From Gymnodinialimonas sp. 57CJ19 (GTDB taxonomy: Bacteria; Pseudomonadota; Alphaproteobacteria; Rhodobacterales; Rhodobacteraceae): DNA of 64,000 bases. This document shows positions 9,276 through 47,928 of this stretch, in pieces (position 1 is the first letter of the stretch; each line of letters begins with the position of its first letter). The notes beneath the pieces were generated by a model, which saw only the letters and a list, made by a program, of their open reading frames with translations, had not been told where the DNA came from and did no database searches. The translations under genes and the position numbers were made by a program. The stretch spans positions 718,001 through 782,000 of the forward strand of contig NZ_CP151587.1 of the NCBI RefSeq assembly GCF_038396845.1, written 5' to 3'.

Positions 9276-10177
9276 TGGCCCGAGGTTCAGACAAACGCGG
9301 CCTTGGTCGGGGCCTTTCTGCCCTGATGGCAGATATCGAACCAAACACAGCTGCGGCATCTTCCGGCGAACAACCCGGTGGCGCACACCGTGGTGAGCGT
9401 CTTGTTCCGGTAGAACAGATCAGCCCAAACCCTGATCAGCCGCGTCGCAAGTTTTCGCAATCAGCGCTTGAAGAACTCGCAGCATCCATCCGCGAGAAGG
9501 GCATTATTCAACCCCTGATCCTGCGCCCTGATCCTGTCGACCAATCCCGCTTCCAAATCGTTGCCGGGGAACGTCGCTGGCGTGCCTCTCAGATCGCGCA
9601 AGTGCACAATCTCCCGGCAATTGTGCGTGAGCTCGACGACACAGAAGTCCTCGAAGTCGCAATTATCGAGAATATTCAGCGTGCGGACCTAAATGCCGTC
9701 GAAGAAGCGCAAGGTTATCGTCAATTGATGGAAAAATTCGGCCATACGCAGGAGCAGTTGGCGACCGCGATGGGCAAAAGCCGCAGCCATCTGGCCAATA
9801 CGATGCGCCTGCTTCAACTGCCCGACGAAATTCAAACCATGCTGCAAGACGGTCAATTGTCCCCCGGACATGCGAGGGCCCTCATTACTGCCGACGATCC
9901 GCTCACCCTGGCCCGCCGTGCGGCGAAAGAAGGCCTGTCCGTCCGAGACGTCGAGAAAGCCGCAAAGGCCCCACCAAAGGGCACAACATCCAAGTCGAAG
10001 TCTCAAAAGAAGACGAAGGACGCTGATACCCGAATTCTAGAAAGCGACCTTTCCAGAATTCTCGGCATGGGTGTCGTGATTGACCATGATACAGATGCGG
10101 GTGGTGGTAAATTGTCCATTAAATACAAAGATTTACAGCAACTGGATGATCTACTGCGTCTGTTGAATACGAACTAG
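9275..10177 (+). CDS. parB: Chromosome partitioning CTPase ParB
   Basis: A 300-aa ParB. Residues 41-60 contain ERLVPVEQISPNPDQPRRKF, and residues 98-104 the GERRWRA box that binds CTP and drives spreading. A helix-turn-helix region follows (EEQLATAMGKSRSHLANTMRLL-like segment near 160-185). A basic linker rich in KSKSQKK precedes the C-terminal dimerisation domain. Its parS targets lie upstream in mnmG and rsmG. It ends 3 bp from the convergent hemW stop. Confidence 0.96.
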   Translation: MARGSDKRGLGRGLSALMADIEPNTAAASSGEQPGGAHRGERLVPVEQISPNPDQPRRKFSQSALEELAASIREKGIIQPLILRPDPVDQSRFQIVAGERRWRASQIAQVHNLPAIVRELDDTEVLEVAIIENIQRADLNAVEEAQGYRQLMEKFGHTQEQLATAMGKSRSHLANTMRLLQLPDEIQTMLQDGQLSPGHARALITADDPLTLARRAAKEGLSVRDVEKAAKAPPKGTTSKSKSQKKTKDADTRILESDLSRILGMGVVIDHDTDAGGGKLSIKYKDLQQLDDLLRLLNTN

Positions 10178-12752: not shown

Positions 12753-13817
12753 ATGACGGACCAAGGCAAAATGCTTGAAGACCTTAACGATCGCTCGCGC
12801 GAGGTGTTTCGCCGTGTGGTAGAGGGATATTTGGAAACCGGCGCCCCTGTAGGGTCGCGCACGCTGACGCGCACCCTGACCGAAAAGGTCTCAGCCGCCA
12901 CGATCCGCAACACGATGCAGGATCTTGAGTATATGGGTCTGCTCGACAGCCCTCATACCTCGGCCGGGCGTTTGCCAACGCAGCAGGGGCTGCGCATGTT
13001 CGTGGATGGGTTTCTGGAGGTCGGCGATCTGTCGAAAGACGATAAGCAAGCGCTGGATGATACCTTGGGGGACAATGCCTCGGACGTCTCTGGCCTGCTG
13101 GATAGGGTCGGTTCTGCCCTGTCGTCCGCCACCCACGGGGCCAGCCTTGTGCTGACGCCCAAGCGCGAAGCGCCCATTCAGCACATCGAGTTTGTGACCC
13201 TGTCCGCCACGCAATCTCTGGTCGTGTTGGTGTTCTCGGATGGTCATGTGGAGAACCGTATTTTCACCCCGCCCGCTGGCATGACCCAAAGCGCCATGCG
13301 GGAAGCCGCGAATTTCCTGAATGCGCGGATCGAGGGGCAAACCGTCAGCTCCATCCGTACCCAGCTAGAGGCCGATATCGAAACCCGCCGCCGCGAGATT
13401 GATGATTTGGCGTCCGGCCTGATCGATTCGGGGCTCGCGGTATGGGACGGCACGGGTGACAATTCCGCTCGACTGATCGTGCGGGGGCGTTCGAATCTGT
13501 TGTCCGACACTCAGGAATCCGAGGATCTGGACCGCATCAGACAGCTCTTTGATGACCTTGAACGCAAGCGGGACATCACCGAATTCCTTGAATTGACCGA
13601 AGACGGCGACGGTGTGCGCATTTTCATTGGCTCAGAGAACAAGTTGTTCTCACTTTCGGGTTCCTCTCTGGTGGTCTCTCCCTATATGAACTCTGATCGA
13701 AAGATCGTCGGAGCTGTCGGGGTCATAGGGCCCACCCGGTTGAACTACGGGCGCATCGTTCCGATTGTAGATTACACAGCGCAGCTGGTTGGACGGCTAA
13801 TTTCCGACCGGTCCTGA
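12753..13817 (+). CDS. hrcA: Heat-inducible transcription repressor HrcA
   Basis: A 354-aa repressor with an N-terminal winged-helix domain (LNDRSREVFRRVVEGYLETG, then KVSAATIRNTMQDLEYMGLL and SPHTSAGRLPT) and a GAF-like C-terminal domain. HrcA binds CIRCE elements at groE-type promoters. No CIRCE (TTAGCACTC-N9-GAGTGCTAA) is visible in front of this gene or of dnaK, so its targets are probably elsewhere. grpE follows 23 bp downstream. Confidence 0.95.
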   Translation: MTDQGKMLEDLNDRSREVFRRVVEGYLETGAPVGSRTLTRTLTEKVSAATIRNTMQDLEYMGLLDSPHTSAGRLPTQQGLRMFVDGFLEVGDLSKDDKQALDDTLGDNASDVSGLLDRVGSALSSATHGASLVLTPKREAPIQHIEFVTLSATQSLVVLVFSDGHVENRIFTPPAGMTQSAMREAANFLNARIEGQTVSSIRTQLEADIETRRREIDDLASGLIDSGLAVWDGTGDNSARLIVRGRSNLLSDTQESEDLDRIRQLFDDLERKRDITEFLELTEDGDGVRIFIGSENKLFSLSGSSLVVSPYMNSDRKIVGAVGVIGPTRLNYGRIVPIVDYTAQLVGRLISDRS

Positions 13818-13840
13818 GCGGCCAGTACCAAGAGGGTAAT

Positions 13841-14407
13841 ATGGGCGAGAGAGAAGACGAATTCTTTGAAGATGAACACGCGGACGACCACGAACCTGCT
13901 GAGGTTTCTTTGGCGACCGAGGATACATCTGGCGTGGATGAAGTGATCGCGGGCCTGGAGGCCGAGCGTGACGAACTGCGTGACCGCATGTTGCGGGCGA
14001 TGGCCGAAGCGGAGAACATGCGCAAGCGTGCCGACCGTGACCGTCGTGAGGCCGAGCAATATGGCGGCTCCAAGCTGTCGCGCGATTTGCTGCCTGTCTA
14101 CGACAACATGCGCCGCGCATTGGACGCGGCCGATGATGCAACCCGCGAAGCCGCCAGCGGCTTGGTGGAAGGGGTCGAGCTGACCATGAGAGAGCTGATC
14201 ACCATCTTTGGAAAGCACGGCATCGTGCCCGTGGTGCCCGAAGTCGGCGATCGCTTCAACGCGCAGGAACATGAGGCGATGTTTGAAGCCCCCGTTCCCG
14301 GCACCAAAGCGGGCGACATCATCCAAGTGATGACCGAGGGCTTTTTGCTCCACGACCGTCTTTTGCGTCCGGCGCAGGTTGGCGTGTCCTCTACGCCTGC
14401 GAGCTAA
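13841..14407 (+). CDS. grpE: DnaK nucleotide-exchange factor GrpE
   Basis: A 188-aa co-chaperone. After an acidic N-terminal tail (EDEFFEDEHADDHEP) there is a long coiled-coil helix (residues about 40-90, including RMLRAMAEAENMRKRADRD), then the GrpE beta domain with GDRFNAQEHEAMFEAP. It forms an operon with hrcA, and ends 3 bp before the convergent mutS stop. Confidence 0.95.
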   Translation: MGEREDEFFEDEHADDHEPAEVSLATEDTSGVDEVIAGLEAERDELRDRMLRAMAEAENMRKRADRDRREAEQYGGSKLSRDLLPVYDNMRRALDAADDATREAASGLVEGVELTMRELITIFGKHGIVPVVPEVGDRFNAQEHEAMFEAPVPGTKAGDIIQVMTEGFLLHDRLLRPAQVGVSSTPAS

Positions 14408-17158: not shown

Positions 17159-19423
17159 ATGGCCGATAAACAAAAAGTCACGCGCGAAGAGGCGCTCGCC
17201 TACCATCTGGGGCCGCAGCCCGGGAAGATTGATATCAACGCCTCTACCGCGATGGCGACGCAACGCGACCTGTCTTTGGCCTATTCGCCGGGTGTTGCCG
17301 TCCCTTGTGAGGTGATCGCCGAAAACCCAGAGACAGCCTACGATTACACCACCAAAGGCAACATGGTGGCGGTGATATCCAACGGGACGGCGGTGCTGGG
17401 GTTGGGCAACCTCGGGGCGCTGGCCTCAAAACCGGTGATGGAAGGGAAAGCGGTTCTTTTCAAACGGTTCGCGGACGTAAACTCCATTGATATTGAGCTC
17501 GACACCGAGGACGTCGATGAGTTCGTGAACGCTGTGAAGTTGATGGGACCGTCCTTTGGGGGGATCAACCTGGAGGATATCAAAGCGCCCGAATGCTTCA
17601 TGATCGAGCAACAGCTGAAAGAGCTGATGGACATCCCCGTATTCCACGACGACCAGCACGGAACCGCGGTGATCTGCGCCGCCGGATTGATTAATGCGCT
17701 GCATATCAGCGGGAAGAAGATCGAGGATTGCCGGATCGTTCTGAATGGGGCGGGTGCGGCTGGAATCGCCTGCATCGAGCTGTTGAAAAGCATGGGTGCT
17801 CGGCAAGAAAATTGTATCGTTTGCGACACTAAGGGCGTTATTTATCAAGGCCGTACCGATGGTATGAACCAATGGAAATCGGCCCATGCCGTCACCACGA
17901 AACTGCGCACGCTGGAAGAGGCGATGGAAGGCGCGGATGTGTTTCTTGGGGTCTCGGCCAAGGGTGCTGTGACGCCCGAGATGGTCAAGGCGATGAACGA
18001 TAACCCGGTGATCTTCGCGATGGCGAACCCGGACCCCGAGATTACGCCAGAAGAGGCCCACGCGGTGCGCGCCGATGCGATTGTGGCTACTGGACGTTCG
18101 GATTACCCGAACCAGGTGAACAACGTTCTTGGGTTTCCCTACCTGTTCCGGGGTGCGCTTGATGTCCATGCCCGCGCGATCAACGACGAGATGAAGATCG
18201 CCTGCGCCAACGCTTTGGCCGAATTGGCTCGGGAAGATGTGCCGGACGAAGTGGCGATGGCCTATGGACGTAAGCTCAGCTTTGGGCGCGACTACATCAT
18301 TCCCACGCCGTTTGACCCAAGGCTAATTTACACGATTCCACCGGCTGTTGCGCAGGCGGGCATGGATACGGGCGCCGCCCGGCGGCCGATCATTGATTTG
18401 GACGGATATGCCAAGGATTTGCAGGCGCGGATGGATCCCACATCCTCGATCCTCCAAGGCGTCTATGCGCGGGCGCGAAACGCTCAGGCCCGGATGATCT
18501 TTGCCGAGGGTGACGATCCTCGCGTCCTGCGCGCGGCGGTGGCCTATCAACGCCAAGGGCTGGGCCGTGCGTTGGTTGTGGGCCGAGACAACGACGTGAA
18601 GGAAAAGTTGGAAAGTGTGGGCCTTGGCGATGCGGCGCGAGAGCTGGAAATCGTTAACGCCGCCAACACACGCCATTTGGAAACCTACAAGGATTTTCTC
18701 TACGACCGGCTTCAACGTAAAGGCTTTGACCGCACGGATATTCACCGCCTCGCGGCCCGTGATCGCCATGTCTTTGCCTCTCTCATGCTGGCTCACGGGC
18801 ACGGCGACGGGATGCTGACAGGGGCCACCCGAAAATCTGCGCAAGCGCTTGAGATGGTGGGCAAGGTTTTTGACGCTAAGGCTGAAGACGGCGCCGTTGG
18901 TGTCACGGCGTTGCTGCATAAGGGCAAGATCGTTCTGATCGGCGATACGTTGGTGCATGAATGGCCATCGGACACCGATATGGCCCTGATCGCCGAACGG
19001 GGCGCGCAGGTGGCCAGGGGGCTGGGGCTGGAGCCGAGGGTCGCCTTCGTTAGCTTCTCTACCTTCGGATACCCGGTGTCCGAGCGGGCCGAAAAGATGC
19101 ACCGTGCGCCGGCAGTGCTGGACGAGAAGGGCGTCGATTTCGAATATGACGGAGAGATGACCGTAGACGTGGCGTTGAACCCGGCGGTGATGGCGCAGTA
19201 TCCGTTCCAGCGCCTGAGCGGCCCTGCCAACGTGCTGGTGGTTCCCGCGCGGCACTCGGCGTCGATCAGTGTGAAGCTGATGCAGGAAATGGCGGGTGCC
19301 ACGGTGATCGGGCCGATCCTGACGGGTCTCGATCGGCCGGTTCAGATCGCCTCCACGGTCAGCACAGCCAATGACATTCTGAACATGGCGGTCATGGCGG
19401 CCTGTGAGATCGGGCGGACCTGA
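17159..19423 (+). CDS. maeB: NADP-dependent malic enzyme with C-terminal phosphotransacetylase-like domain
   Basis: A 754-aa MaeB-type protein. Residues about 1-420 are malic enzyme ([25 protein letters not shown], then a [13 protein letters not shown] nucleotide-binding turn). About 430-754 resemble phosphate acetyltransferase ([19 protein letters not shown]). It decarboxylates malate to pyruvate with NADP; the C-terminal domain is usually regulatory and acetyl-CoA responsive. The ATG at 17159 has AGGGAG upstream and is preferred over a TTG six codons earlier. A strong hairpin terminator follows. Confidence 0.94.
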
Positions 19424-23453: not shown

Positions 23454-24275
23454 CTAGCGCCGCGCGTCCCAGCTGGCCGAAGCATGTTTGCGGGTATAGC
23501 TTTCGAACATCATCCCCACGAGCAGTGCCGCAAGGCAGAAGTAAAACGGATAAGCGACATTCGTGTTGTGGGGAAAGTAATTCACAAACACGTATCCCCG
23601 CGTCTGGTCGATCACGTGGAACAGGGGGTTCCACCGAAACGCCGGCAGCATCATCGCTGGCATCATGTTGGCCAGAACCATCTTCCCCGAGAAAATCATA
23701 TTCGCGCGGATGTAGACCATGGATAGGATAGGCACGAGGTCAGGCATCCAAGGCTTCAAGGCCATCAAGATGATGCCCAGCACCACCCCAAGGGCCCAGA
23801 CAAGGATAAACATCCGCAAAGCGCCGGGCCAGTCGTGGATCTCTACCGGAAGCACGACCGTGTGGATCAACAGCAGGATGCACATGATCGCGATGGTTTG
23901 GGTGTAAAGGATGGCAAGTGCTTCGGAGCAGATCGAAACCAGAGTGTTCATCGGCCCGTGCTGCATCATCGCGCTCGTTGGACCTTCTGCCCCCATGACG
24001 GCACGGACGGTTTGAATGTGGGTCAGATACATGAAGATGCCGCTGACCAGATAGACCATGAAGTTTCCCCGTACGGCCACGGTGCGGCCCCCAAGGAAAT
24101 TGAACATAAGGTAGAAGGCCGCGATAAACAGAAGGCTTTGCAGGATCGACAGGACAATCGACAGCAACGCATTTCCGTGACCTTTACGGACCTTGCGGAC
24201 AGATGCGTAAAAGGTGACCTCCAAAAAATTGAAGACCAGCGCCCACGTGGACTGCGATGTTCGGGTTTCAAACAT
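23454..24275 (-). CDS. ABC-2 type permease for polysaccharide export (KpsM/RkpT-like)
   Basis: A 273-aa inner-membrane protein with about six hydrophobic segments, for example LSIVLSILQSLLFIAAFYLM, FMVYLVSGIFMYL and ALGVVLGIILMAL, and a C-terminal hydrophobic stretch before FESYTRKH. The layout is that of ABC-2 permeases for capsular polysaccharide or O-antigen. No KpsT-like ATPase or KpsE/KpsD-like partner lies beside it; the only ABC ATPase in the window is LptB. I prefer the ATG at 24275, which has AGGA upstream, over one at 24302. Its location next to the glycan block suggests export of that glycan (inference). Confidence 0.75.
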   Translation of the reverse strand: MFETRTSQSTWALVFNFLEVTFYASVRKVRKGHGNALLSIVLSILQSLLFIAAFYLMFNFLGGRTVAVRGNFMVYLVSGIFMYLTHIQTVRAVMGAEGPTSAMMQHGPMNTLVSICSEALAILYTQTIAIMCILLLIHTVVLPVEIHDWPGALRMFILVWALGVVLGIILMALKPWMPDLVPILSMVYIRANMIFSGKMVLANMMPAMMLPAFRWNPLFHVIDQTRGYVFVNYFPHNTNVAYPFYFCLAALLVGMMFESYTRKHASASWDARR

Positions 24276-24410
24276 GTCGAGTATCCTAGCCTGCCGCTGC
24301 ATGGTACGGCTTGTTGTTCGCGCTGCGCCTTAAGGCTTTGCTTGCCGTTCCCACACGCGCAGACGATAACGCGGTAGGAGTTAATTTTCAATTCAACCGT
24401 GGGTGAACGT

Positions 24411-25208
24411 ATGGATCACGAAAAACTTGTTGCCGTCATGCGCGCCGCTGCCTTGGAAGCAGGCGATGCGATCATGGAAGTGTATGGCGCAGATGATTTT
24501 GACGTGAAGGTCAAATCCGACGATAGTCCCGTGACCGAAGCCGATGAGGCGGCAGATGCGATCATCTCTCGGCATCTGCGGGCGGCTTTCCCAGACGTGA
24601 CGCTGGTTACCGAAGAACAGGCCGACAGCCACGGGCTAAGCGCCGATCAGTTCCTGATCGTGGACCCGCTGGATGGCACCAAGGAATTCATCAAGCGTCG
24701 CGGCGATTTCACGGTAAACATCGCCTTGGTCGAGGGCGGCAGGCCCATTCGCGGCATCGTTTATGCCCCCGCCAAGGGGCGCTTGTTCTACACCACCGCC
24801 GATGGGGTGAGTGTTGAGGAAGCCGGCCCGTTCGATCCCAAGGCGCCGGGTAGGCTCGATCCTATTGGCGTTTCCAAGCCCGACAATGGCGCTCTGCGCG
24901 TCGTGGCCAGCAAGTCGCACCGCGATCAGGCGACCGATGACTACATCAACAAATACGCCCACGCCGATATGAAAAGCGCGGGCTCCTCGCTGAAGTTCTG
25001 CCTCGTGGCGACGGGAGAGGCGGATATCTATCCCCGCCTTGGCCGCACGATGGAATGGGACACCGCCGCAGGCGATGCCGTGCTTCGCGGCGCGGGCGGG
25101 CAGATGGTCCGGTTCGAGGATCACGCGCCGTTTGACTACGGCAAGGACGGTTTCGCCAATGGCTTCTTCATCGCCTACGCGCCGGGTGTGGAGTTGAAGC
25201 AGCCATGA
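24411..25208 (+). CDS. cysQ: 3'(2'),5'-bisphosphate nucleotidase CysQ
   Basis: A 265-aa inositol-monophosphatase-fold enzyme with the metal-binding motif DPLDGTKEFIKR (from residue 85) and the C-terminal WDTAAGDAVLRGAGG. It converts 3'-phosphoadenosine-5'-phosphate (PAP) to AMP, removing the by-product of sulfate assimilation and of sulfotransferases. The kdsB start overlaps its stop (ATGA). Because a two-domain sulfotransferase lies at the end of the same plus-strand block, local PAP removal is a reasonable role (inference). The ATG at 24411 is used over an upstream GTG. Confidence 0.9.
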   Translation: MDHEKLVAVMRAAALEAGDAIMEVYGADDFDVKVKSDDSPVTEADEAADAIISRHLRAAFPDVTLVTEEQADSHGLSADQFLIVDPLDGTKEFIKRRGDFTVNIALVEGGRPIRGIVYAPAKGRLFYTTADGVSVEEAGPFDPKAPGRLDPIGVSKPDNGALRVVASKSHRDQATDDYINKYAHADMKSAGSSLKFCLVATGEADIYPRLGRTMEWDTAAGDAVLRGAGGQMVRFEDHAPFDYGKDGFANGFFIAYAPGVELKQP

Positions 25209-37721: not shown

Positions 37722-37738
37722 GAATGGTGCCCAGGAGA
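37722..37738. repeat. Island attachment site attL (core copy 1)
   Basis: GAATGGTGCCCAGGAGA, identical to the copy overlapping the tRNA-Leu 3' end. It is the displaced tRNA fragment left by integration, and also the outer edge of the left 547-bp inverted repeat. Confidence 0.85.
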
Positions 37739-38269
37739 TCATTCATCTCTTGGTTGTGTTCCCGTTACAGGCACCCTGACAGGGTCTCCCTTCAACGTAG
37801 CAAGGGGTAGCGGTAGAGGAGAGACCCAGTCAAGAGGCACCAGTTGGTCTACGGTTTGGTCTACGGTGCCCTATGCGGTCCCTGAGGGGCTACGAGAGGC
37901 ATCGCCTGAGCTTCCCGGGGGCACACCCTCTCCACATCAGCATAGCCCATGCCTCCTAGGGCAAGCCTACAGCGCCCCGCAGCCCCACCCCACCACGGGG
38001 GAAAACGCGGTCACGTCCCTTATCGGTAGACCTCTCAGATGTGCGTCATGAAAACACGCCGGGAGGGCGAGGAAGAGGGAAGTTGAAGGGTGGAGGGACC
38101 GGACATCACAGGAGCTATCTCTTACGGGTCCCCCTATGGGGAGTAACCTTAGGTGATACCTAGGTGTACCTCCTCCCTCCTCTCTTAGTATCCCCTCTCT
38201 AGTAGCTTAGGTCCTGAAGGGGTCACGCAGCGATAGCGTGGGTCTGCTCCAACTGTTGCTTGGTGAGGA
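37723..38269. repeat. 547-bp inverted repeat, left arm
   Basis: Reverse complement of 45986-46532. My base-by-base reading finds one difference (T at 37743 against the expected C). It contains an attachment core at the outer edge, a perfect tandem 12-mer TTGGTCTACGGT (37844-37867), an inverted GTAGACC (38026-38032) and, at the inner edge (38223-38269), an antisense copy of the last 15 codons and stop of the polymerase gene. No independent coding gene is credible in it. Confidence 0.95.
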
Positions 38270-38350
38270 GGGCAATTTGCCAAGCAACACCATAGGTCGA
38301 ACATTCAAGTCGCTGGATTACAAGTCGCGGTGGGTTTGCCACAGCTCCAC
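38270..38350. other. Short non-coding gap downstream of hsdR
   Basis: Eighty-one bases between the inner edge of the left inverted repeat and the hsdR stop. No terminator-like hairpin with a T run is obvious. Confidence 0.5.
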
Positions 38351-41300
38351 TCAGGCTGCTTCATAGATGCTCCCACCATTGCTACGGTAGGCCTCATAGA
38401 CGTGCCGATAGATCGTGGCGCATTTTGCCGAGTAGACGTCTTCGCGATAAGCGTCAGGTAATCCTCTGTCGAGGGTCACTTCAATGGCCTGCCGGACTGC
38501 ACTTCGGGCACTGGGCTTGTTGTGCCAGTCCAACACAAATTTCTCGTCCTTGAGTGTCTGCAACAGTGATCTAGCAACAACCTTCACCTCCTTCCGTTCT
38601 TTGTCTGTCAGTTCGGGTTCAGGCTTAGTCAGGATGTCGAAGAGTGCTTTCTCCTCCTCGGAGAGACCCTCCTTCACCGTTTGCTGTTCTTCGTCTGAAA
38701 GGTCGTCAGCCAGCTGAATAAGGGCACGGAAGAAGGCCTCGATGTTCTGGCTACCGTTGTTGTAGCCATCGATCAGTTGTTGAAAGCGATCTAGGAAGTC
38801 GGCCCTTGTTGGGTTGCGGGCTACCATTGCGGTCAGCTTCTGGTTCAGCAGTGCCCTTAGTCGCTCCGCCTCTGTTCGTTGGTTCCCGATATCAAACTTG
38901 GCCTTGAGCTTCTCGAAGTCTACTTGGCTTATGTCGATGATCTCTGCTTCTTCAGGGGTCTCGTAGGGGATCGGAGCGACCGAACGGTCAAGCAGGTCTT
39001 CAACGTCCTGCAAGATCGCCTTGATGTCCGGTTGTGGCATAAGGGACCGGATGCGATCCGCTAAGACTGAGATGAGGACAACTTCAGGGGAGAACTCGGA
39101 TGATGCCGGATCAGGCAAGATCGCCTTGTAGACCCTCGATACAGCCCTAGCCTTAGTGAGATAGTCACGCTTCGCTTCGTCGTTCTCGATCAGCGCTTCA
39201 ACCGCATCGCCAACGAGCGCCAGTTTCTCCAAGCCCTTGGCCCGTATGATAGCAGCAGGATCAACATCTCGTTGCTGCAAATGGGCCGCCGTCAGAGCCA
39301 CTAGATGACGCAAATACTCTACTAGGTCGGATTTATCCCTAATGGGTGGGTCCACTGCCCCAGTGTTGCCACCACCGTAGATAGCAAGAGCCTTCTGGAG
39401 GTTCCTGAATACGCCGACATAGTCAACGATGAACCCTGCTTCCTTTCCAGGGTAATTGCGGTTGGCTCTAGCGATTGTCTGCATCAGCGTGTGGTTCTTC
39501 ATTGGCTTGTCGAGGTAGATGGTGGAGCAGGACGGGACGTCGAACCCGGTGATCCACATCGCGCAAACGAATACGAGACGGAGGGGGTCCTTATCGTCCT
39601 TGAACTTTTCGTCGAGGTCCTCTTCTACGAGGCGCTTCCGGTGCGGTCGCATATCAAGACCTTTGGCGTCTAGTTCCGCCAACTCGTTCTGCCCTTGTGA
39701 AACAACAACCGCCATGTCTGTCGTCTTCATCAGGTCGATCTGTGTTTCTAGGGCTGGTCGCTCGACTTCAGGGGCAGTCTTGAGTTTCTCCTCCAGCTCT
39801 ACTCGGTAGGCATCCCAGTGGTCCTGCACCTTGTCGTACATCCTGACAGCAGTCGCTTTGTCGATACACACCATCATCGCTTTCGAACGCTGTCCGCGCC
39901 CTGTGAAGTGACGCACAAGGTCCGCAGCGATGGCTTCTAGGCGATCGTCACGGGTGATCAGGTGGTACTCACGAGCAAATTCCCGCTCTACCTTCCGCCC
40001 CTGCGCTTCGTCGAGGTCGGCCTCCTCAATTAGCTGTTGTAGCTCGTCCCCAAGCGCATCGTTGGCAAGCTGCAGCTCTGGGATGCGGTTCTCGTAGTAG
40101 AGAGGAACCGTCGCGCCGTCCGCAATGGACTGGGCAAAGTTGTAGACTGAGATGTAGTCGCCGAAGACCTCCCGCGTCCGTTCCTCTCCTGCCATCAAGG
40201 GCGTCCCGGTGAAGCCCAAGAACGCCGCATTGGGTAGGGCGTTACGCATATTGAGTGCCAGTGTGTCGTACTGCGTCCTGTGTGCCTCATCAGTGATCAC
40301 GATGATGTCGCGCCTGTTAGAGAGCTGAGGGTAGGCCGCACCGTCCCGAGTGTTGAACTTGTGGATTAGCGTGAAGACATAGCGGTGATCGGCAGTCAGC
40401 AGTTCCTTCAGATGCACACCACTTTCTGCGTGGACACCTGCGCTTGTGACCGCACCAGTCGCGGCGAAGGTTTTGTAAAGCTGCTCGTCTAGTTCCTGTC
40501 GGTCTGTCACGATGACGAACGTCCAGTTGCCGGGGACCGTGCGAAGTATCTTTTGGCAGAAGAAGACCATCGACAGGGACTTGCCGCTGCCCTGAGTGTG
40601 CCAGAAGACGCCCAGCCGCCCCGCTTCTCCCTGTGGTCTCTCCTTGGACCTTATGACCTCCTCAAGGGCGCGGTTGACCCCAAGGTACTGGTGGTTCTTG
40701 GCCAGCTTCTTGATCAGCCCTGCCTTCTCCTCTTCGTAGACAAGGAAGTTCTCGACGATATCAAGCAACTGATCTTTGGCGCATAACCCACGCACCGCTG
40801 TCTCCAGCGAGACTACGCCTTTCTCGCCCTCGTCATTGATCCGTTTCCAGTCGTTGAAGAACTGCCAAGGCGCGAACGTGCTGCCTACCTTAGTGTCCAC
40901 ACCGTTGGAGAGGAGGATGAATGCGTTCGGTGTGAACAGGTGGGGGATCGTGTCTCGGTAGTCGGTTAGGTTGTCGTCATAGGCGCTCTTCACAGGTACG
41001 CTGGGTTTCTTCAGTTCCATCATGACCAAGGGGATGCCGTTGACGAAGCCCATCAGGTCGGGCCGTCTCCGGTGCATCTCGCCCTTCACCCAGAACTGCG
41101 AGGCAAGGAGGAAGTCGTTGGCTTCTGGATCGCGCCAGTCGATAACCCTTGCCGTCTCGGTCTCCTGCCGCCCCCGTTCATCCGTTACGCGAACCTTCAC
41201 GCCCTCACGCAACAGCTGCCACAGCTCTCGGTTGGCGTTTACGGGTACCATGCGGGAGCGGTCGCGGGTGACCTCTTCAACAACCTGATCGATAGCTGTG

Positions 41301-41515
41301 GAGGGGAGCAGGGGGTTCAAGCGCTCAAGTGCTGTACGCAAGCGTGGCTCAAGCACAACTTGGATCTCGCTCTCACGTCCTTCTAGCGAGGTGCCAGAGG
41401 TCCACTCGTTGTAGAGGTTTACCGTGTCCCAACCCAGATCAGCGAATAGGGCGATAGTCGGTTGCTCGACCGCTGTATCCTCTCCGTAGTCGTGGGCTGT
41501 GTCGGTTGGTGTCAC
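38351..41515 (-). CDS. hsdR: Type I restriction enzyme, R subunit
   Basis: A 1054-aa motor/nuclease subunit. The N-terminal nuclease domain has a PD-(D/E)xK-like pattern RPDLMGFVNGIPLVMMELKK (about 151-170). SF2 translocase motifs follow: Walker A HTQGSGKS (306-313), DEAH (409-412) and GFTGTPL. It cuts unmodified DNA together with HsdM and HsdS. It starts with GTG overlapping the stop of the small upstream gene (GTGA). It appears intact, so the system is probably active. Confidence 0.95.
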   Translation of the reverse strand: MTPTDTAHDYGEDTAVEQPTIALFADLGWDTVNLYNEWTSGTSLEGRESEIQVVLEPRLRTALERLNPLLPSTAIDQVVEEVTRDRSRMVPVNANRELWQLLREGVKVRVTDERGRQETETARVIDWRDPEANDFLLASQFWVKGEMHRRRPDLMGFVNGIPLVMMELKKPSVPVKSAYDDNLTDYRDTIPHLFTPNAFILLSNGVDTKVGSTFAPWQFFNDWKRINDEGEKGVVSLETAVRGLCAKDQLLDIVENFLVYEEEKAGLIKKLAKNHQYLGVNRALEEVIRSKERPQGEAGRLGVFWHTQGSGKSLSMVFFCQKILRTVPGNWTFVIVTDRQELDEQLYKTFAATGAVTSAGVHAESGVHLKELLTADHRYVFTLIHKFNTRDGAAYPQLSNRRDIIVITDEAHRTQYDTLALNMRNALPNAAFLGFTGTPLMAGEERTREVFGDYISVYNFAQSIADGATVPLYYENRIPELQLANDALGDELQQLIEEADLDEAQGRKVEREFAREYHLITRDDRLEAIAADLVRHFTGRGQRSKAMMVCIDKATAVRMYDKVQDHWDAYRVELEEKLKTAPEVERPALETQIDLMKTTDMAVVVSQGQNELAELDAKGLDMRPHRKRLVEEDLDEKFKDDKDPLRLVFVCAMWITGFDVPSCSTIYLDKPMKNHTLMQTIARANRNYPGKEAGFIVDYVGVFRNLQKALAIYGGGNTGAVDPPIRDKSDLVEYLRHLVALTAAHLQQRDVDPAAIIRAKGLEKLALVGDAVEALIENDEAKRDYLTKARAVSRVYKAILPDPASSEFSPEVVLISVLADRIRSLMPQPDIKAILQDVEDLLDRSVAPIPYETPEEAEIIDISQVDFEKLKAKFDIGNQRTEAERLRALLNQKLTAMVARNPTRADFLDRFQQLIDGYNNGSQNIEAFFRALIQLADDLSDEEQQTVKEGLSEEEKALFDILTKPEPELTDKERKEVKVVARSLLQTLKDEKFVLDWHNKPSARSAVRQAIEVTLDRGLPDAYREDVYSAKCATIYRHVYEAYRSNGGSIYEAA

Positions 41516-41811
41516 CTGCAGAAACTCCGCCCTTGCGCTCGGCAGTTGAACTCATCAACAACACCATCCGCTTCGCGACCTGCAGCGTCAAACCAGTCCG
41601 AGAGGCACGTCTGAAATCGCGCGATGTCCTCGAGGTAATCCTCAACTTCGTTGCGGCAGCGATTGAATGACCAATCGTCGTCGAACGTGTAGTATCGGTC
41701 AATACAGTTGGGTGGCGAAGGCTCGTCACAGTAGAAATGCGACTGCGCGGCTATGGGCGAAGCAATCGCCAGCGATGGCAACAGAAATAGAACCGAAATA
41801 ACCTTCGTCAC
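41512..41811 (-). CDS. Small secreted Cys-rich protein inside the R-M operon
   Basis: A 99-aa protein with a likely signal peptide ([24 protein letters not shown]) and a mature part of about 75 residues rich in Cys, Asp and aromatic residues: FYCDEPSPPNC, FNRCRNEVEDYL, FQTCLSDWF and FNCRAQGRSFC. Six cysteines suggest disulfides in the periplasm. It starts with GTG overlapping the hsdS stop and ends overlapping the hsdR start, each by 4 nt, so it is truly part of the operon. I do not recognise its function; an exported protein is unexpected in a restriction operon. Confidence 0.7.
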   Translation of the reverse strand: MTKVISVLFLLPSLAIASPIAAQSHFYCDEPSPPNCIDRYYTFDDDWSFNRCRNEVEDYLEDIARFQTCLSDWFDAAGREADGVVDEFNCRAQGRSFCR

Positions 41812-42920
41812 TCCGCCGCCTCCAGTTCTGCCTCTGCCTCGCTAACGTCGATCTCGCCGGAGACCAACTTGGGCAGCAGCAGGTCACGCTGGGCACGGAG
41901 GTTGGCGTTCTTGAGATTGAGCAACCGATGCGCTGCAAAGAGCGGTTTGCAAACATCCACGAAGCGGAGCAGTAGCTCATTTGGTGGGCAAAGGAACGGG
42001 AGGCTGTAGGCCTGTTGTCTGTTCAGACCGGGAACAGCTGCATCGTTGTTGAGGAAGTTCTGTCGCTCGAGGTTGAAGTAGACATATTCCAAAGGCAGCG
42101 CGGTATGCACAAAATAAACAGTATCAATCGGGTGGAAGGGGTCCTCGGACCAGAAGACGCTTCCGACATTGCCCTTTCTCCCAACAATGATCCCCGGCCC
42201 GTCAACCAGGCTGCGGTTATGCGTACCCACGACACCACTTGAACCAAAGACAGGGAAAGGGCCCTCCACGCGTTCTGAGGCTTTCAACGCCTTCCCGTAT
42301 TTGAGTTCGATGTAGTCGGACAAGAGCCCAAGTACCCAGCCAACAGGGTGGCGATCATCACCTTCGGCCACAAACTCGACCGCTTCATGCCCCGGAAAGC
42401 GGAAGTGGACGAACCACTCCTCGTAGAGCCGACGGGCCATTTCCTCGAGGATCGCGATGCGGCGCGTGTTGTTCTCGATCAGGTCGTCATAGGCCGAGAG
42501 GATCGCAGCTATGCGCTGTTGGGTGGGGAGGGGCGGTATTGCGACCGGTAAGCTGTGTATGTGATTTCGGTTCAAAGTTGGGTTGGCAGCTCCAACGTCA
42601 TACTGTTGAAAACCCATGCCTTGTAGGAAGAAGTAGCAGAACCTTGGGTCATTTCCGTGGAAGTTCTTCACCCATAGCGTTGTGTCATGGGGCCAATATT
42701 GGCTTGCGCTATAAAACACAGTTCCAAGGCTTCCCTTGCGACCAATTATTACACCGGGACCGTCGAACATATATTCAGCGTGGTAACTCTTGATGCCTGA
42801 TGAAGAGATCACCGGGTATGGGCCTTCGCGTTGTTGGGCTTTGGTAATGTCATAGCCCCTTTGAAAGGTCACAAGGTCCCCCAAAGGAACTTCACGCCAA
42901 TCTTGTGAGAACTGCGTCAC
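41808..42920 (-). CDS. hsdS: Type I restriction enzyme, specificity (S) subunit
   Basis: A 370-aa HsdS with two target-recognition domains: the first about residues 1-130, the second about 195-325. Each is followed by a conserved helix: [20 protein letters not shown] at about 131-150 and [21 protein letters not shown] near the C-terminus. The two domains define a bipartite DNA target that cannot be read from sequence. GTG start overlaps the hsdM stop (GTGA). No second hsdS fragment for shuffling is present. Confidence 0.93.
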
Positions 42921-44482
42921 CGTGCCCCCTCCAGCACAAGCGCTTTGTTCTCCGCGATCTGCTCCTCCAGTGCTGCCGCCTCAGCATTTAGCTGCACTAA
43001 CTCCTCGTTCAATTCCTCGAACCGCTCGACGAAGTCTACGTCATCATCGCCCCGCGCCGTCGCCCCCACATACCGTCCGGGGTTCAGGCTCCAGCCCTGC
43101 GCCTCGATCTCTGCGCGGGTCGCGACCTTGCAAAGGCCGGGGACATCCACGTAGCCATCGCTAAGCCCATGCTCAGTCAGCAGCTCAGCACTGCCTGCGT
43201 CGGTTTCAACTGCTTCACCACGGTAGAGCCGCACGATGTTGGCTAGCAGCTCGATCTGTTCGGGCAGGAAGTCACGGTGGGCACGGTCGATCTGGCGATA
43301 GAGAGAGCGAGCATCGAGAAAGAGAACCTTGTCCTCCCGCTCCGTCCCGCGCTTGCCTTTGTCAAAGAACCACAAGGTGCAGGGCAGCGTGACGGTATAG
43401 AACATGTTCGGCCCGACCGAGACGATGACATCCACGCTGCCGTCCTCGATCAGCTTTTGCCGGATAAGTTGCTCTGACCCCCGCGCGTCTCCTGCCGAGT
43501 TCGCCATGACAAAGCCCGCGCGGCCCTGATCGTTCAGCGCAGAGTTGAACATCTGTATCCACAGGTAGTTCGCGTTGTCAGGCTTGGGAACACCGTGAGG
43601 GAAGCGCCAGTCGCCCTCCAGCTCCTCCTTACGGACGCCTGAGACGTTGAAGGGAGGGTTGGCCATGACGAAGTCAAACCCGCCGCGTTCCTCAAAGACC
43701 TTGGGGAAAAGCTGCTTGATGTCGGTGGCGTAGGTGTTGGCCTCGCGTACGTCGCCAGACAGCCCATGCACGGCGAGGTTCATCTTGTTGAGGTTGACGG
43801 TGACGCGGTCCTTCTCGACCCCGTAGATGCTGATCTCATTGCCTGCAGTCAGGCCATGTCGCTGCACGAACTCCGCCGAGTGGACGAACATGCCACCAGA
43901 GCCACAGGCCGGGTCAAGGATGCGTCCCTGATAGGGTTCGATCACCTCGACGATCAGCTTTACGATGCTCTCAGGGGTGTAGAAGACCCCGCCCTTCTGG
44001 CCTTCCTTCATGGCGAAGTTGCCGAGGAAGTACTCGTAGACCTTGCCGAAGGCGTCCCCGGTCAAGTCGATGGGCGCAAGCAAACGGATCAGCTCGACCA
44101 GCACGTCGTTTGTGAGTTCCGTGTAGGTCTGGGGGAGAGCGCCTGAGAGGTCAGAGTTGTCCTCCTCTATGGCCTTCATCGCCGCGTTGATCGCCTTGCC
44201 GATGTCGTCGCTTTCAGTGAGGGACTGAAGGTGGCTGAAGCGAGCCTCAGGACGCAAGAAGATGACACCCTCAGCCTCGTAATCGACCTTGCTGATCTTG
44301 CGGCGATTTCCTGACCCCACAGGACCGATCCGACCTTCGACCTCAGTGAAGCGTTTCTCGGCGTAGCGAAGAAAGATGAGACCAAGGACGGGGTTAGAGA
44401 ACTGACTGGGCTTCAAACCAGTGTTGGCCCAAAGCTGATCTGCAGCTGCCCACAAGCGCTTCTCGACGTCACCATTTACCAT
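42917..44482 (-). CDS. hsdM: Type I restriction enzyme, methyltransferase (M) subunit
   Basis: A 521-aa N6-adenine methyltransferase. An N-terminal helical domain ([19 protein letters not shown]) precedes the SAM motif [10 protein letters not shown] (190-199) and the catalytic NPPF (275-278). It methylates the sites chosen by HsdS. First gene of hsdM-hsdS-orf-hsdR, with a 212-bp divergent gap to the polymerase gene. Confidence 0.95.
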
Positions 44483-44694
44483 GTGGATACTCCCTCAACT
44501 ACCCTAAGCCATCAGTGTTGTATCTATGGCTTTAGCATATGCGTAGCATCCTCTGCTCACCATTATCCAGCGCCCAGCACAATGCAGGTATCAATCAACT
44601 ACTGACCCTTTCTAAGTCAGTCGAGGTGGCGCTTTCGAACCAGCCTGAGAATTAGTGGACACCATTGCAGTAATCGCAATTTCAAGGCTCCCCA
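44483..44694. promoter_or_regulatory. Divergent control region between hsdM and the polymerase gene
   Basis: A 212-bp gene-free gap serving both directions. No controller-protein (C-box) repeat or strong -35/-10 pair stood out. The absence of a regulator gene suggests that control is internal to the operon. Confidence 0.4.
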
Positions 44695-46032
44695 ATGACA
44701 ATCTCAATTCCCGAAGCCAGCGGCCCAGCCGAAGGTGTTACTTCACGTATGCAACGTCCACACGACCCGTGGCGGACTGCCAAGACCCCAGACGCACGGC
44801 GCTTTGTCCAAGCCGTCATCACTATGATCGCAGAACACGAACAACGACATGGCCTAAGGAAGCGCAAAAGGCGCTCAAAAGATCAAGAGGTCTTTGAAAG
44901 AGCGGTCGATGCGATAATCTCCGACCTTGCGCTCAATGCTATGACGGAACGCAGCAGCGGTCTTCGTATCTCACGGTCTAACGGAACTTTGCTGTTCAAA
45001 TCACGCTACCGTAGCCCCGTCACGACAAAGACACTGCCAATGCTTCTGGACCTACTTAGTGACCCTTCACTTGGTCTGATAGAACAGAAACTGGGCATCG
45101 GTTCGGAATTTGGAGACGGCATCCAAACGATAATTCGACCATTGCCCAAACTTGTTCACATGTTGCAGCGCTACAGACTGTGCCCCTTGAGCTTCGTCGA
45201 GCTTCAGCGCAAGGAACCAATCCACCTCAAAGGAAACCCACTTCGCCATGACAAGCCTGCGCCACAAATTGAGTATGAAGACAGCGATGTAACAGAGCGG
45301 TTTCGCCGCGACGTACTGGAAATCAATGCATGGCTGGCGACCGCACAAATCACATCACTTGGTCCGCTTACGGTAGACTTAAACAGGCGGCAGCTCCGGC
45401 GCGTATTCACTCGCGGCAGTTTCAGCAAGGGCGGAAGGCTATTCGGCGGTTTCTGGCAGCCGATGCATAAACTGGATCGTTTGAAATACCTCGAGATATC
45501 TGGTGAGCCTGTTGTTGAGATCGACTACGGCCAGATCATGCCTCGCTTGATGTACGCTCATGCAGGGCTAGAACCTGAGATGGACGATCTATACGCTATT
45601 AGTGGCTTTGAAGCATTTCGACCGGGCGTAAAGAAAATCATGTCGTCAATGCTGTTCGTAGACAAGCCGATCACAAGATTTCCCAAGGGGACCCGTAACC
45701 TCTTCCCCAAAGGTGTAAACGTGTGTGACGTGACAGACGCCGTTAGTGTTAGCCACCCAATTATCGCTCAATACTTCTTCACAGGCATTGGCCATCACTG
45801 CCAGTTCCTTGAAAGCCAGATCATGGTAGAAGTTCTACGTGTCTTAATGGGGATGAAGAGTATGGGTATCATTGCTCTTCCCATCCACGATGCCGTTCTA
45901 GTCCCTGCCTCAGCTGAGAAGGTCGTCAAGAACGTGATGCTTCACACCTTCTTGAACAAGACGGCGCAGAGCGGTGTGGTGGACGTCCTCACCAAGCAAC
46001 AGTTGGAGCAGACCCACGCTATCGCTGCGTGA
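44695..46032 (+). CDS. Family A-like (TV-Pol-type) polymerase of a mobile element
   Basis: A 445-aa protein whose C-terminal half carries the palm and fingers motifs of family A DNA polymerases and T7-like RNA polymerases. Motif A is EIDYGQIMPRLM (Asp277; E. coli Pol I has ADYSQIELRIM). Motif B is RPGVKKIMSSMLF (Arg309, Lys313, with Phe321 where Pol I has Tyr766). Motif C is LPIHDAVLV (His398-Asp399; Pol I VHDELV). GGRLFGGFW (246-254) may match the TGRLSS template motif. No 3'-5' or 5' nuclease domain is present; residues 1-200 are unassigned. It fits the transposon-viral polymerase group, proposed to combine primase and polymerase activity. Its last 15 codons lie inside the 547-bp inverted repeat. 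Confidence 0.75.
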   Translation: MTISIPEASGPAEGVTSRMQRPHDPWRTAKTPDARRFVQAVITMIAEHEQRHGLRKRKRRSKDQEVFERAVDAIISDLALNAMTERSSGLRISRSNGTLLFKSRYRSPVTTKTLPMLLDLLSDPSLGLIEQKLGIGSEFGDGIQTIIRPLPKLVHMLQRYRLCPLSFVELQRKEPIHLKGNPLRHDKPAPQIEYEDSDVTERFRRDVLEINAWLATAQITSLGPLTVDLNRRQLRRVFTRGSFSKGGRLFGGFWQPMHKLDRLKYLEISGEPVVEIDYGQIMPRLMYAHAGLEPEMDDLYAISGFEAFRPGVKKIMSSMLFVDKPITRFPKGTRNLFPKGVNVCDVTDAVSVSHPIIAQYFFTGIGHHCQFLESQIMVEVLRVLMGMKSMGIIALPIHDAVLVPASAEKVVKNVMLHTFLNKTAQSGVVDVLTKQQLEQTHAIAA

Positions 46033-46532
46033 CCCCTTCAGGACCTAAGCTACTAGAGAGGGGATACTAAGAGAGGAGGGAGGAGGTACACCTAGGTATC
46101 ACCTAAGGTTACTCCCCATAGGGGGACCCGTAAGAGATAGCTCCTGTGATGTCCGGTCCCTCCACCCTTCAACTTCCCTCTTCCTCGCCCTCCCGGCGTG
46201 TTTTCATGACGCACATCTGAGAGGTCTACCGATAAGGGACGTGACCGCGTTTTCCCCCGTGGTGGGGTGGGGCTGCGGGGCGCTGTAGGCTTGCCCTAGG
46301 AGGCATGGGCTATGCTGATGTGGAGAGGGTGTGCCCCCGGGAAGCTCAGGCGATGCCTCTCGTAGCCCCTCAGGGACCGCATAGGGCACCGTAGACCAAA
46401 CCGTAGACCAACTGGTGCCTCTTGACTGGGTCTCTCCTCTACCGCTACCCCTTGCTACGTTGAAGGGAGACCCTGTCAGGGTGCCTGTAACGGGAACACA
46501 ACCAAGAGATGGATGATCTCCTGGGCACCATT
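45986..46532. repeat. 547-bp inverted repeat, right arm
   Basis: Reverse complement of 37723-38269, with the single difference at 46512. It begins inside the 3' end of the polymerase gene, holds the mirrored tandem 12-mer (46388-46411) and ends in the inverted attachment core (46517-46532). Since the polymerase reading frame is complete only here, this is probably the parental copy. Confidence 0.95.
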
Positions 46533-46602
46533 CCCTACAGTTAACCTACTGTTTCCCTTCAGTTTTCACTACTGAACGCTGGAGGCGTAGACCATGCTGG
46601 AG
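46517..46602. repeat. 86-bp inverted repeat, left arm (downstream of integrase)
   Basis: Perfect reverse complement of 47770-47855. Its first 16 bases are the inverted attachment core shared with the right 547-bp arm. It contains two imperfect dyads, ACAGT-TAACCT-ACTGT and TTCAGT-TTTCAC-TACTGAA, and one CGTAGACC (46586-46593). It stops at the integrase stop codon. Confidence 0.95.
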
Positions 46603-47778
46603 CTACGTTGCCGCTTTCATCCATTTGGCTAACACCTCAAGCGGGTATCCATCCCCGTAGCCATGTCCAACACCCTCGGTCTGCCATCCCCCGATCTGGT
46701 CTACGATGTCCGCAGGACACTCAACGGCCCGCAGCCTGTCACGCATCGAGTGGCGGAAGCTGTGCATCGTACATTTCTGGGGGACCTGTGGTTTCATCCA
46801 TTTGTTCAATGCAGCGCTCGCTGAGTTAGCGTTGGTCTTGTTGGGGCTGCAGTATCGCGGGAAGGCGAAGTCGCTCTGAGTAACGCTCTTGTGGACCCTA
46901 TGCGCAGCCCAGAGTGCCGCTCCCACCAGTGGGACCATTCGAGTGCTTCCAGCGGTCTTCAGACGCCGCCATGGATGCTCTTGAACGACAATGTGAGGGA
47001 TGGGGTGGTCGAGTTTGATGTCCTCCTTCAAGAGACCAGCTACCTCTGCAAGCCGCATTCCGGTGTCAGACGCGATGGCGACAAGCCAGCGGAGATCGTC
47101 GTCCAGCTTCCGGCACTCAGCCTGAAGGGATCGGACTACCTCGAGTGGAAGCGCTGCACGGCTTGTGACCCCTGCGTTCCGATCATAGTACACCTTGCCG
47201 AACGGGTTGGTCATTTCGACCCCGACCTCACTTGCAGCGAAGTTGATCACTGACCGAACTGTCCCGAAGACGCGTGTGATACTGCTGCCCGCGAGCCCAC
47301 GCTTGATCAGATCGTCGCGGAAGGCGTTGGCGTCAGACTTGGTGTACGAGGTGATGTCCTTGTCGCCACACACATCAATAACGTAGCCACAGGAGCGCTC
47401 AGCGGCCCTCTGGAAGGTGACTGGACGTCCCTGCCCCTTGAGCCGCAAGTAGATGCGTACCGCTTCAGAAAGGCTTATCGCGTCATGGACGACGTCTCTG
47501 GCGACCATGGCCACGCCTGATGGTGGATGGCTTTGACGACGCAGCAGGTGCATTCCCGGGAGATCAACGTCACGTATGCGCAGGTGATACCAGTGTTCGT
47601 CTAGTTGTTGCGCGGCACGTTGCGCTCGCGAAGCGGCCACGGCACCCGACTTCGTGCGAAGCGAATACATGATCCTGCTAGCGTTGTAGTGGTGTGAAAG
47701 ATCACTCGGGACCCGTCGTGAGAAGTAGTAGATGCCCAGCTTTACAAATGTGTAAGGGGCAGTTTTGGTCTCCAGCAT
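46603..47778 (-). CDS. int: Tyrosine recombinase (site-specific integrase) of the island
   Basis: A 391-aa phage-type integrase. The N-terminal segment LGIYYFSRRVPSDLSHHY resembles the DUF6538 domain of proteobacterial island integrases. A SAM-like core-binding domain spans about 100-185. The catalytic domain shows Arg242 (TGMRLAEV), Lys274, His339-x-x-Arg342 (HSFRH), Trp365 (GGW) and the nucleophile Tyr374 (GHGYGDGY). It should cut and join at the tRNA-Leu core. Its first three codons lie in the right 86-bp repeat and its stop abuts the left one. No excisionase gene is visible. Confidence 0.92.
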   Translation of the reverse strand: MLETKTAPYTFVKLGIYYFSRRVPSDLSHHYNASRIMYSLRTKSGAVAASRAQRAAQQLDEHWYHLRIRDVDLPGMHLLRRQSHPPSGVAMVARDVVHDAISLSEAVRIYLRLKGQGRPVTFQRAAERSCGYVIDVCGDKDITSYTKSDANAFRDDLIKRGLAGSSITRVFGTVRSVINFAASEVGVEMTNPFGKVYYDRNAGVTSRAALPLEVVRSLQAECRKLDDDLRWLVAIASDTGMRLAEVAGLLKEDIKLDHPIPHIVVQEHPWRRLKTAGSTRMVPLVGAALWAAHRVHKSVTQSDFAFPRYCSPNKTNANSASAALNKWMKPQVPQKCTMHSFRHSMRDRLRAVECPADIVDQIGGWQTEGVGHGYGDGYPLEVLAKWMKAAT

Positions 47779-47855
47779 GGTCTACGCCTCCAGCGTTCAG
47801 TAGTGAAAACTGAAGGGAAACAGTAGGTTAACTGTAGGGAATGGTGCCCAGGAGA
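47770..47855. repeat. 86-bp inverted repeat, right arm (integrase start to tRNA end)
   Basis: Covers the integrase start codon, 63 bp of leader and the tRNA-Leu 3' end. It contains GGTCTACG at 47779-47786 and the same dyads as the left arm. The integrase promoter must lie within or beyond this repeat, so recombinase binding here could also autoregulate int (inference). Confidence 0.95.
47839..47855. repeat. Island attachment site attR (core copy 3), at the tRNA-Leu 3' end
   Basis: GAATGGTGCCCAGGAGA. It includes the 3' acceptor strand, discriminator A and encoded CCA of tRNA-Leu, so integration at this core keeps the tRNA intact. Confidence 0.85.
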
Positions 47856-47928
47856 GGACTCGAACCTCCACATCGTTGCCAATACTAGCACCTGAAGCTA
47901 GCGCGTCTACCAATTCCGCCACCTGGGC
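47842..47928 (-). tRNA. tRNA-Leu (anticodon CAG)
   Basis: An 87-nt gene including encoded CCA. Acceptor strands GCCCAGG and CCTGGGC pair perfectly; the anticodon stem CTAGC/GCTAG encloses the loop TTCAGGT with CAG at 47892-47894. A long variable arm and the T-arm GGTTCGAGTCC follow, as expected for a class II leucine tRNA decoding CUG. The 3' end doubles as the integration site of the island. Confidence 0.95.

Follow-up and report, generated by a model that had tools for sequence, protein, structure and literature searches.

A tRNA-Leu Island of Gymnodinialimonas with a TV-Pol-Like Polymerase and Two Inverted Copies of Its Attachment Site: A Tentative Comparison with the Yeast 2-Micron Plasmid

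Organization of the Island

The window analysed here, a stretch of 64,000 nucleotides from Gymnodinialimonas sp. 57CJ19 (NZ_CP151587.1, positions 718,001 to 782,000), carries an island of about 10 kb (37722-47855), which lies at a tRNA-Leu gene and is bounded by 17-bp core copies. A type I restriction system, an open reading frame of 445 aa with an ATG start and a tyrosine integrase are arranged with the repeats as follows.

37722-37738, + strand: attL core, a 17-bp copy of the tRNA-Leu 3' end, in direct repeat with 47839-47855 (17/17)
37722-38269, no strand: left long arm of 548 nt, an inverted copy of 45986-46533 with 1 mismatch in 548
37845-37865, + strand: tandem arm-type motif, TGGTCTACG twice with 12-bp spacing (0/200 shuffles), putative sites
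38351-41515, - strand: type I restriction subunit HsdR (Pfam, PADLOC)
41808-42920, - strand: type I specificity subunit HsdS (Pfam, PADLOC)
42917-44482, - strand: type I methyltransferase HsdM (Pfam, PADLOC)
44695-46032, + strand: predicted TV-Pol-like family A polymerase (alignment, fold, phrog_4756), its final 47 nt within the arm
45986-46602, no strand: apparently complete internal attP copy of 617 nt (long arm, inverted core, short arm)
46517-46533, - strand: internal core, inverted (17/17 identical)
46517-46602, no strand: inner short arm, 86 nt including the core, 86/86 identical to the inverse of 47770-47855
46603-47778, - strand: tyrosine integrase of 391 aa (DUF6538 and Phage_integrase, Pfam)
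47770-47855, no strand: outer short arm, with the int start codon and 5' flank, an arm-type motif and the core
47839-47855, + strand: attR core in the tRNA-Leu 3' end, 17-bp repeat of 37722-37738
47842-47928, - strand: tRNA-Leu (CAG), the integration target (ARAGORN, Rfam)

The left long arm repeats the final codons of the polymerase gene, the tandem motif has mirror copies at 46402-46410 and 46390-46398, and the motif of the outer short arm (47778-47786) is mirrored at 46586-46594. Rfam detected nothing besides the tRNA. Both the tyrosine recombinase and the type I restriction genes (together 38351-44482, - strand), which a first-pass annotation of the sequence had named, are real according to Pfam. 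The element has the hallmarks of a tRNA-integrating genomic island, namely a tyrosine integrase, att repeats with the tRNA 3' end, and empty sites in relatives: the neighbouring gene adjoins tRNA-Leu without an island in five of the nine same-genus loci viewed, while the left neighbour lies outside the fetched flank in the remaining four, and three further genomes with a match were left out of this count.

The internal 617-bp copy has a counterpart that is split between the island ends and is one mismatch apart from it. Judged from this layout, excision by attL x attR recombination would join the outer arms into a second 617-bp site, inverted relative to the internal one. The predicted circle of 10,117 bp would carry two near-identical inverted attP copies of 617 nt (one mismatch), with the integrase gene on one side of them and the polymerase and type I restriction genes on the other. 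Of the two segments between the sites, one, of 1,167 bp, is almost exactly the integrase gene; the other, of 7,716 bp, contains the type I restriction system and the polymerase gene apart from its final 47 nt, which belong to an arm. An assembly artefact was rejected: the same arrangement is seen in three one-contig genomes (G000, G045, G588), in the 4.6-Mb contig of G200 and in the TM1040 record, and the long arms of the window differ by one base.

The Polymerase Gene Product

The 445-aa protein was aligned with 65 of 120 listed homologues (the best 120 of 688), giving 66 rows. The residues that the first-pass annotation had read as polymerase motifs, D277 (in DYGQIMPRLM), R309, K313, F321 and H398-D399, lie where it had placed them and are invariant in 66/66 rows, the motifs being thus present in the homologues as well. 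D277 and D399 provide the two conserved aspartates of the palm, and the fingers hold the RxxxK pair (R309, K313) together with a conserved aspartate, D298, which is likewise invariant. Before the palm, where TV-Pols have a beta-hairpin with an invariant arginine, such a hairpin is predicted (strands 234-238 and 246-251, with R248 invariant). Upstream of the hairpin helices are predicted at 32-51, 61-84 and 198-214, which are at most candidates for the TV-Pol thumb of two antiparallel helices. As had been claimed, no nuclease domain was detected with Pfam, NCBIfam, PADLOC or PHROGs; the sole Pfam match was D5_N at E 0.13, below the cut-off, NCBIfam and PADLOC gave no match for this protein, and PHROGs placed it in phrog_4756 (E 7e-31), a family of unknown function. 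A structure prediction, compared with known polymerases as the first-pass annotation had proposed, gave a fold that matches family A polymerases, and this match makes it plausible that the motifs correspond to those of E. coli Pol I as suggested, for example at Tyr766. A profile search of PDB sequences with the 66-row alignment returned nothing up to E 10.

As far as the main text of Iyer, Abhiman and Aravind 2008 (PMC2579912) goes, TV-Pols are a minimal polymerase core without nuclease, have alphaproteobacterial members, occur in mobile-element neighbourhoods with integrases and in regions rich in restriction operons, and are predicted by the authors to have primase and polymerase activity. 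The protein of the window resembles them in its motifs, in its minimal nuclease-free core and in its mobile-element setting, an island with integrase and att repeats. It fits the published family, and the polymerase itself is therefore of an already known kind; its polymerase or primase activity is a prediction. The direct repeats described there for Brucella are of about 200 nt, whereas the arms here are inverted, and the term 'inverted' appears 0 times in that main text. Of the earlier interpretation, the assignment to TV-Pols, the recombinase and the restriction genes stand, whereas the island, its inverted repeats and the att duplication at the tRNA-Leu gene had been missed.

In viral contigs, no polymerase relative was confirmed by a single-protein scan, which reaches close relatives only, and tblastn; the scan of genome contigs, equally limited to close relatives, gave one, in a Nitrospira MAG. 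There, far from the Alphaproteobacteria, the TV-Pol relative (37%) is found together with a tyrosine integrase. Another contig (L094) holds three TV-Pol-like frames in about 8.5 kb.

Mirrored Arms among Related Integrases

Matches to the polymerase profile were found in 49/394 genomes of the family (E <= 1e-10) and 22/385 genomes of the class (E <= 1e-20), with four genomes in both tallies, and integrase matches in 45/295 family genomes. The integrase survey comprised 84 unique ORFs of at least 200 aa from fetched loci, repeats having played no part in choosing these; one locus, L168, was added later via a homologue of a primase gene. Flanking inverted arms (at least 60 nt, at least 90% identity) accompany 20 of the 84 ORFs, L134 with its arms of 77% identity being outside this strict count, and such a repeat was present in none of 17 other 20-kb windows from the genomes G000, G045 and G588. 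When 73 integrases of 300 aa or more were placed in a tree, with arms counted from 75% identity, arms occurred in 21/23 rows of one clade (support 100/99; L134 included), whose members without arms are L141 and L082. Outside the clade, one of 49 testable rows has arms (L087, whose tree position is unsure because of its long branch) and 48 have none, L095 being a further, untestable row; in eight of the 'no' rows on the tree the downstream flank is shorter than 2,600 nt (at least 451 nt), and distant arms could be missed there. The arm label changes four times on the tree against a shuffled mean of 19.3, and 0/500 shuffles were as low. The tree excludes twelve integrase ORFs shorter than 300 aa, among them L108 and L113, whose loci also hold mirrored arms.

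In nine of 13 elements compared, both arm pairs could be resolved on the two sides of the integrase, and together with L168 these elements make ten resolved islands: the window, L087, L135, L136, L138, L139, G200, TM1040 (L147), L091 and L168. They sit at tRNA-Leu, Ser, Phe and Thr genes and at tRNA 3' fragments, and the conservation of the mirrored-arm architecture is well supported. In the other four elements (L035, L041, L042, L043) long arms lie around the polymerase gene instead. L035 and L041 are islands at tRNA-Gln, with the polymerase facing opposite ways in the two, and on the short contigs of L042 and L043 no tRNA was found; the integrases of L035, L041 and L043 fall in another clade. 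The single contig of G045 holds six integrases of the mirrored-arm clade (L134-L139), four of them with the full mirrored layout, and L134 looks decayed.

Repeats as a property of TV-Pol as such were rejected, being absent from 48 of the 58 TV-Pol loci of at least 8 kb; two of the ten positives look IS-derived. L040 and L070 were rejected as examples, their arms appearing, by eye from the ORFs, to be insertion-sequence copies. At L037 a 575-nt direct repeat (93%; 8795-9369 and 18544-19118), which starts in tRNA-Gln and includes the polymerase C-terminal end, is possibly the remnant of a second element.

Arm Identity and Arm-Type Motifs

The long arms of the ten resolved islands measure 375 to 3183 nt. 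Within nine islands compared, the short arms are identical in eight, L091 showing one difference, and the long arms are identical in three (L087, G200, TM1040); elsewhere the long arms differ at one position (the window), four (L139 and L091 each), 13 (L136), 15 (L138) or 34 (L135). Counted from the core, the first difference lies at 321 nt in L135, 394 in L136 and, apart from one at 24, at 547 in L138; in L041 differences are found both near the core and far away. Exceptions to arm identity are the short arms of L128 and L134 (91% and 77% identical). Within G045, the short arms of L135 and L136 are 7% apart and their long arms 11%, and since arms are alike within an element, yet diverge between these two, they are kept alike inside elements while the elements drift apart. 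In G200 (L148/L127) the mirrored arms, of 3,183 nt and identical, each hold a complete helicase gene, and an RTX-repeat protein is encoded in the cargo.

In six of nine islands the short arm has one copy of a 9-10-nt motif and the long arm two, with 12-bp spacing, the pair starting 91-119 nt from the beginning of that arm (0/200 letter shuffles of the same arms in each case; L135 and L136 are near copies of each other). A 7-nt version was found in L091 (1/200 shuffles) and L087 (2/200), and none by the shuffle test in L139. The motif sequence varies by island (TGGTCTACG, TGTACTACG, TGGTCAGTA), as would be expected of integrase arm sites, and each copy looks, from its sequence, like a complete attP.

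These patterns bear on one rival explanation of the arms, a passive duplication in which an old inverted attP copy, of no use to the element, has been kept identical by host homologous recombination. In its favour, RecA can recombine inverted repeats 0.3-3 kb long, and most of the divergence is at a distance from the core in L135, L136, L138, L091 and L042, though not in L041. We nevertheless regard this account as rather unlikely, as arms are retained in nearly all rows of the integrase clade, L087, whose integrase is distant, adds a further case, the tRNA-Gln islands L035 and L041 have inverted cores and long arms, and the short arms end at the integrase gene, with motifs preserved in both copies.

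Replication Genes of Related Islands

Nine of the ten resolved islands encode a replication protein, which is of three kinds. TV-Pol is found in the window, L087 and L139; a primase-helicase in L135 (phrog_16950, DNA primase, E 2.7e-24), with proteins 87-92% identical in L136, L138 and L168; and helicases, 39% identical to each other, in TM1040 and G200. The TM1040 helicase has only a weak Pfam match (Herpes_ori_bp, E 0.028), and 10 of the 118 relatives found with it carry PF08707 or PF09250, which we take to be PriCT_2 and Prim-Pol, respectively. Searches of PDB sequences gave nothing for the primase-helicase and, for the TM1040 helicase, matches only at E 0.29 or worse. No recognised replication gene was present among the ORFs searched in L091, which carries EamA transporters, or in L142, which carries DUF6804 and whose contig holds only the integrase-side arms. 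In 10 of 12 testable cases, including L035, L041, L042 and L043, the replication gene runs with its 3' end into an arm; L053, which runs off its contig, was left out of the 12.

A Possible Mode of Multiplication

According to the accessible text of two accounts of the yeast 2-micron plasmid (PMC3147054, PMC6594588), it has inverted 599-bp repeats with recombinase sites, exists as two isomers and is amplified via recombination during replication. Like this plasmid with its Flp/FRT system, the predicted circle carries a recombinase gene and two inverted repeats, each with a recombinase site. Unlike it, the element of the window is bacterial, integrates at a tRNA gene, encodes its own replication protein and uses a phage-type integrase with putative arm-type motifs; nor is it a resident extrachromosomal multicopy circle, the assembly having one chromosomal copy, and it is hence not filed as a member. 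Two inversion isomers were found in homologous islands (L135 and L138 versus L136 and L168), not for the window itself.

We tentatively favour, with somewhat less than even confidence, a self-replicating island that is organised and likely multiplies like the 2-micron plasmid, TV-Pol starting replication and recombination between the inverted sites driving amplification. The architecture is well supported, and from it we infer the amplification. The integrase would excise the 10,117-bp circle, TV-Pol would prime or replicate it, and recombination between the inverted sites during replication would make the forks chase each other in an amplifying, rolling replication; concatemers would then be resolved, and monomers would reintegrate at a tRNA-Leu gene. 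Inversion may be brought about by the integrase, and host homologous recombination would also serve. The chemistry has a precedent, because an archaeal plasmid tyrosine integrase inverts DNA between inverted att sites, in the available text of PMC5495485. Against the 2-micron reading stand the TV-Pol loci, most of them without repeats, the islands L091 and L142 without a recognised replication gene among the ORFs searched, and L141 and L082 without arms. Lambda-type integrases, moreover, recombine attP with attP poorly.

Other systems share single features with the island. In the available text of Rice 2023 (PMC10061031), SCC elements encode a CcPol-MP complex that synthesises DNA primer-free, which likewise places a family A polymerase on an integrative island; SCC elements mostly have serine recombinases and helicase and SSB partner genes, whereas the window has a tyrosine integrase, and a dual attP is not described for them in that text. 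Open-access literature, which takes in few subscription journals and no preprints, yielded, in the text available, no description of a bacterial island whose integrase gene is flanked by attachment sites in inverted orientation. Plasmid and phage records contained no free circular form of the element. The integrase gave 35 matches in plasmid records, reaching at least 80% query coverage only in Ruegeria TM1040 (64%) and in one 28% match, and three weak matches in phage records; the polymerase gave three plasmid-record matches, all partial, and blastn of the long arm of the window against plasmids gave none. Pipolins combine a self-priming polymerase with a tyrosine recombinase; theirs is the family B piPolB, whereas the fold here is that of family A, and the island is not counted among them.

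It is possible, if somewhat doubtful, that such 'mirror islands' are integrative replicons of bacteria that have so far escaped recognition as a class; they would keep two near-identical, inverted attP copies around the integrase gene together with a replaceable replication protein (TV-Pol, primase-helicase or a helicase of Prim-Pol type), and would amplify by recombinase-driven inversion. If true, they would be the bacterial, integrating counterpart of the 2-micron plasmid, the mirrored attachment site beside a replication gene offering a concrete, testable route. This layout suggests that bacteria, on islands that carry restriction systems, may also have the recombinase-driven amplification known from yeast.

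Orientation of Integrase and Cargo

Cargo orientation varies among related islands. In L135 and L138 the primase gene lies on the integrase side, its 3' end facing the integrase, and this gene pair has the opposite orientation in L136 and L168. The latter two, although from two genomes, share the gene that adjoins them, and one event, not two, may therefore account for both. The integrase, by contrast, is constant: its start adjoins the tRNA in the same reading direction in 18/18 arm-bearing cases with an ARAGORN-detected tRNA, and by eye G200 and L091 have apparent tRNA 3' fragments on the same side. For a model with equal use of the two sites this constancy is the chief obstacle, because free flipping predicts both orientations. 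Integrase ORFs that lack such arms and have a tRNA nearby are oriented likewise in 30/32 cases, and an older constraint may therefore be at work.

The constant orientation also keeps alive a different explanation, in which the inverted sites pair within a single strand to give a duplex attP. A copy in single-stranded form, arriving by transformation or conjugation or produced by rolling-circle replication, could then be integrated, with the polymerase or primase priming the second strand. Since core and arm motifs are present in both copies, a stem formed by these would amount to a full attP; repair of the stem would yield arm identity, a fixed strand polarity would explain the 18 uniform integrases, and Rice 2023 proposes, in the text available (PMC10061031), second-strand synthesis after single-stranded entry for PolA-SSB primases. 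We consider it unlikely all the same, as the single-stranded form of the island is hypothetical, the flips of the cargo are left unexplained and need double-strand recombination, and the same integrase orientation is common without arms. That inversion serves as a switch for the expression of restriction or other cargo genes is very improbable: both cargo orientations do occur, but the cargo genes vary from island to island and start within the inverting segment, so that their own upstream DNA would move along with them.

As to the cargo itself, type I restriction is carried by the window (Pfam, PADLOC) and, as annotated, by TM1040, and a GmrSD-like protein is encoded on the contig of a related island (G076, L053). 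On the contig of another related island (G358), a candidate defence protein, PDC-S11 (L054, 2775-3791), lies between genes that appear, by eye, to encode type I specificity and restriction subunits. On the megaplasmid of Ruegeria sp. TM1040 (NC_008043.1, L147), the accession of a BRO-family protein is annotated twice, at 13249-14396 and 23545-24692, because the mirrored arms, which flank the type I restriction system, each contain the complete gene.
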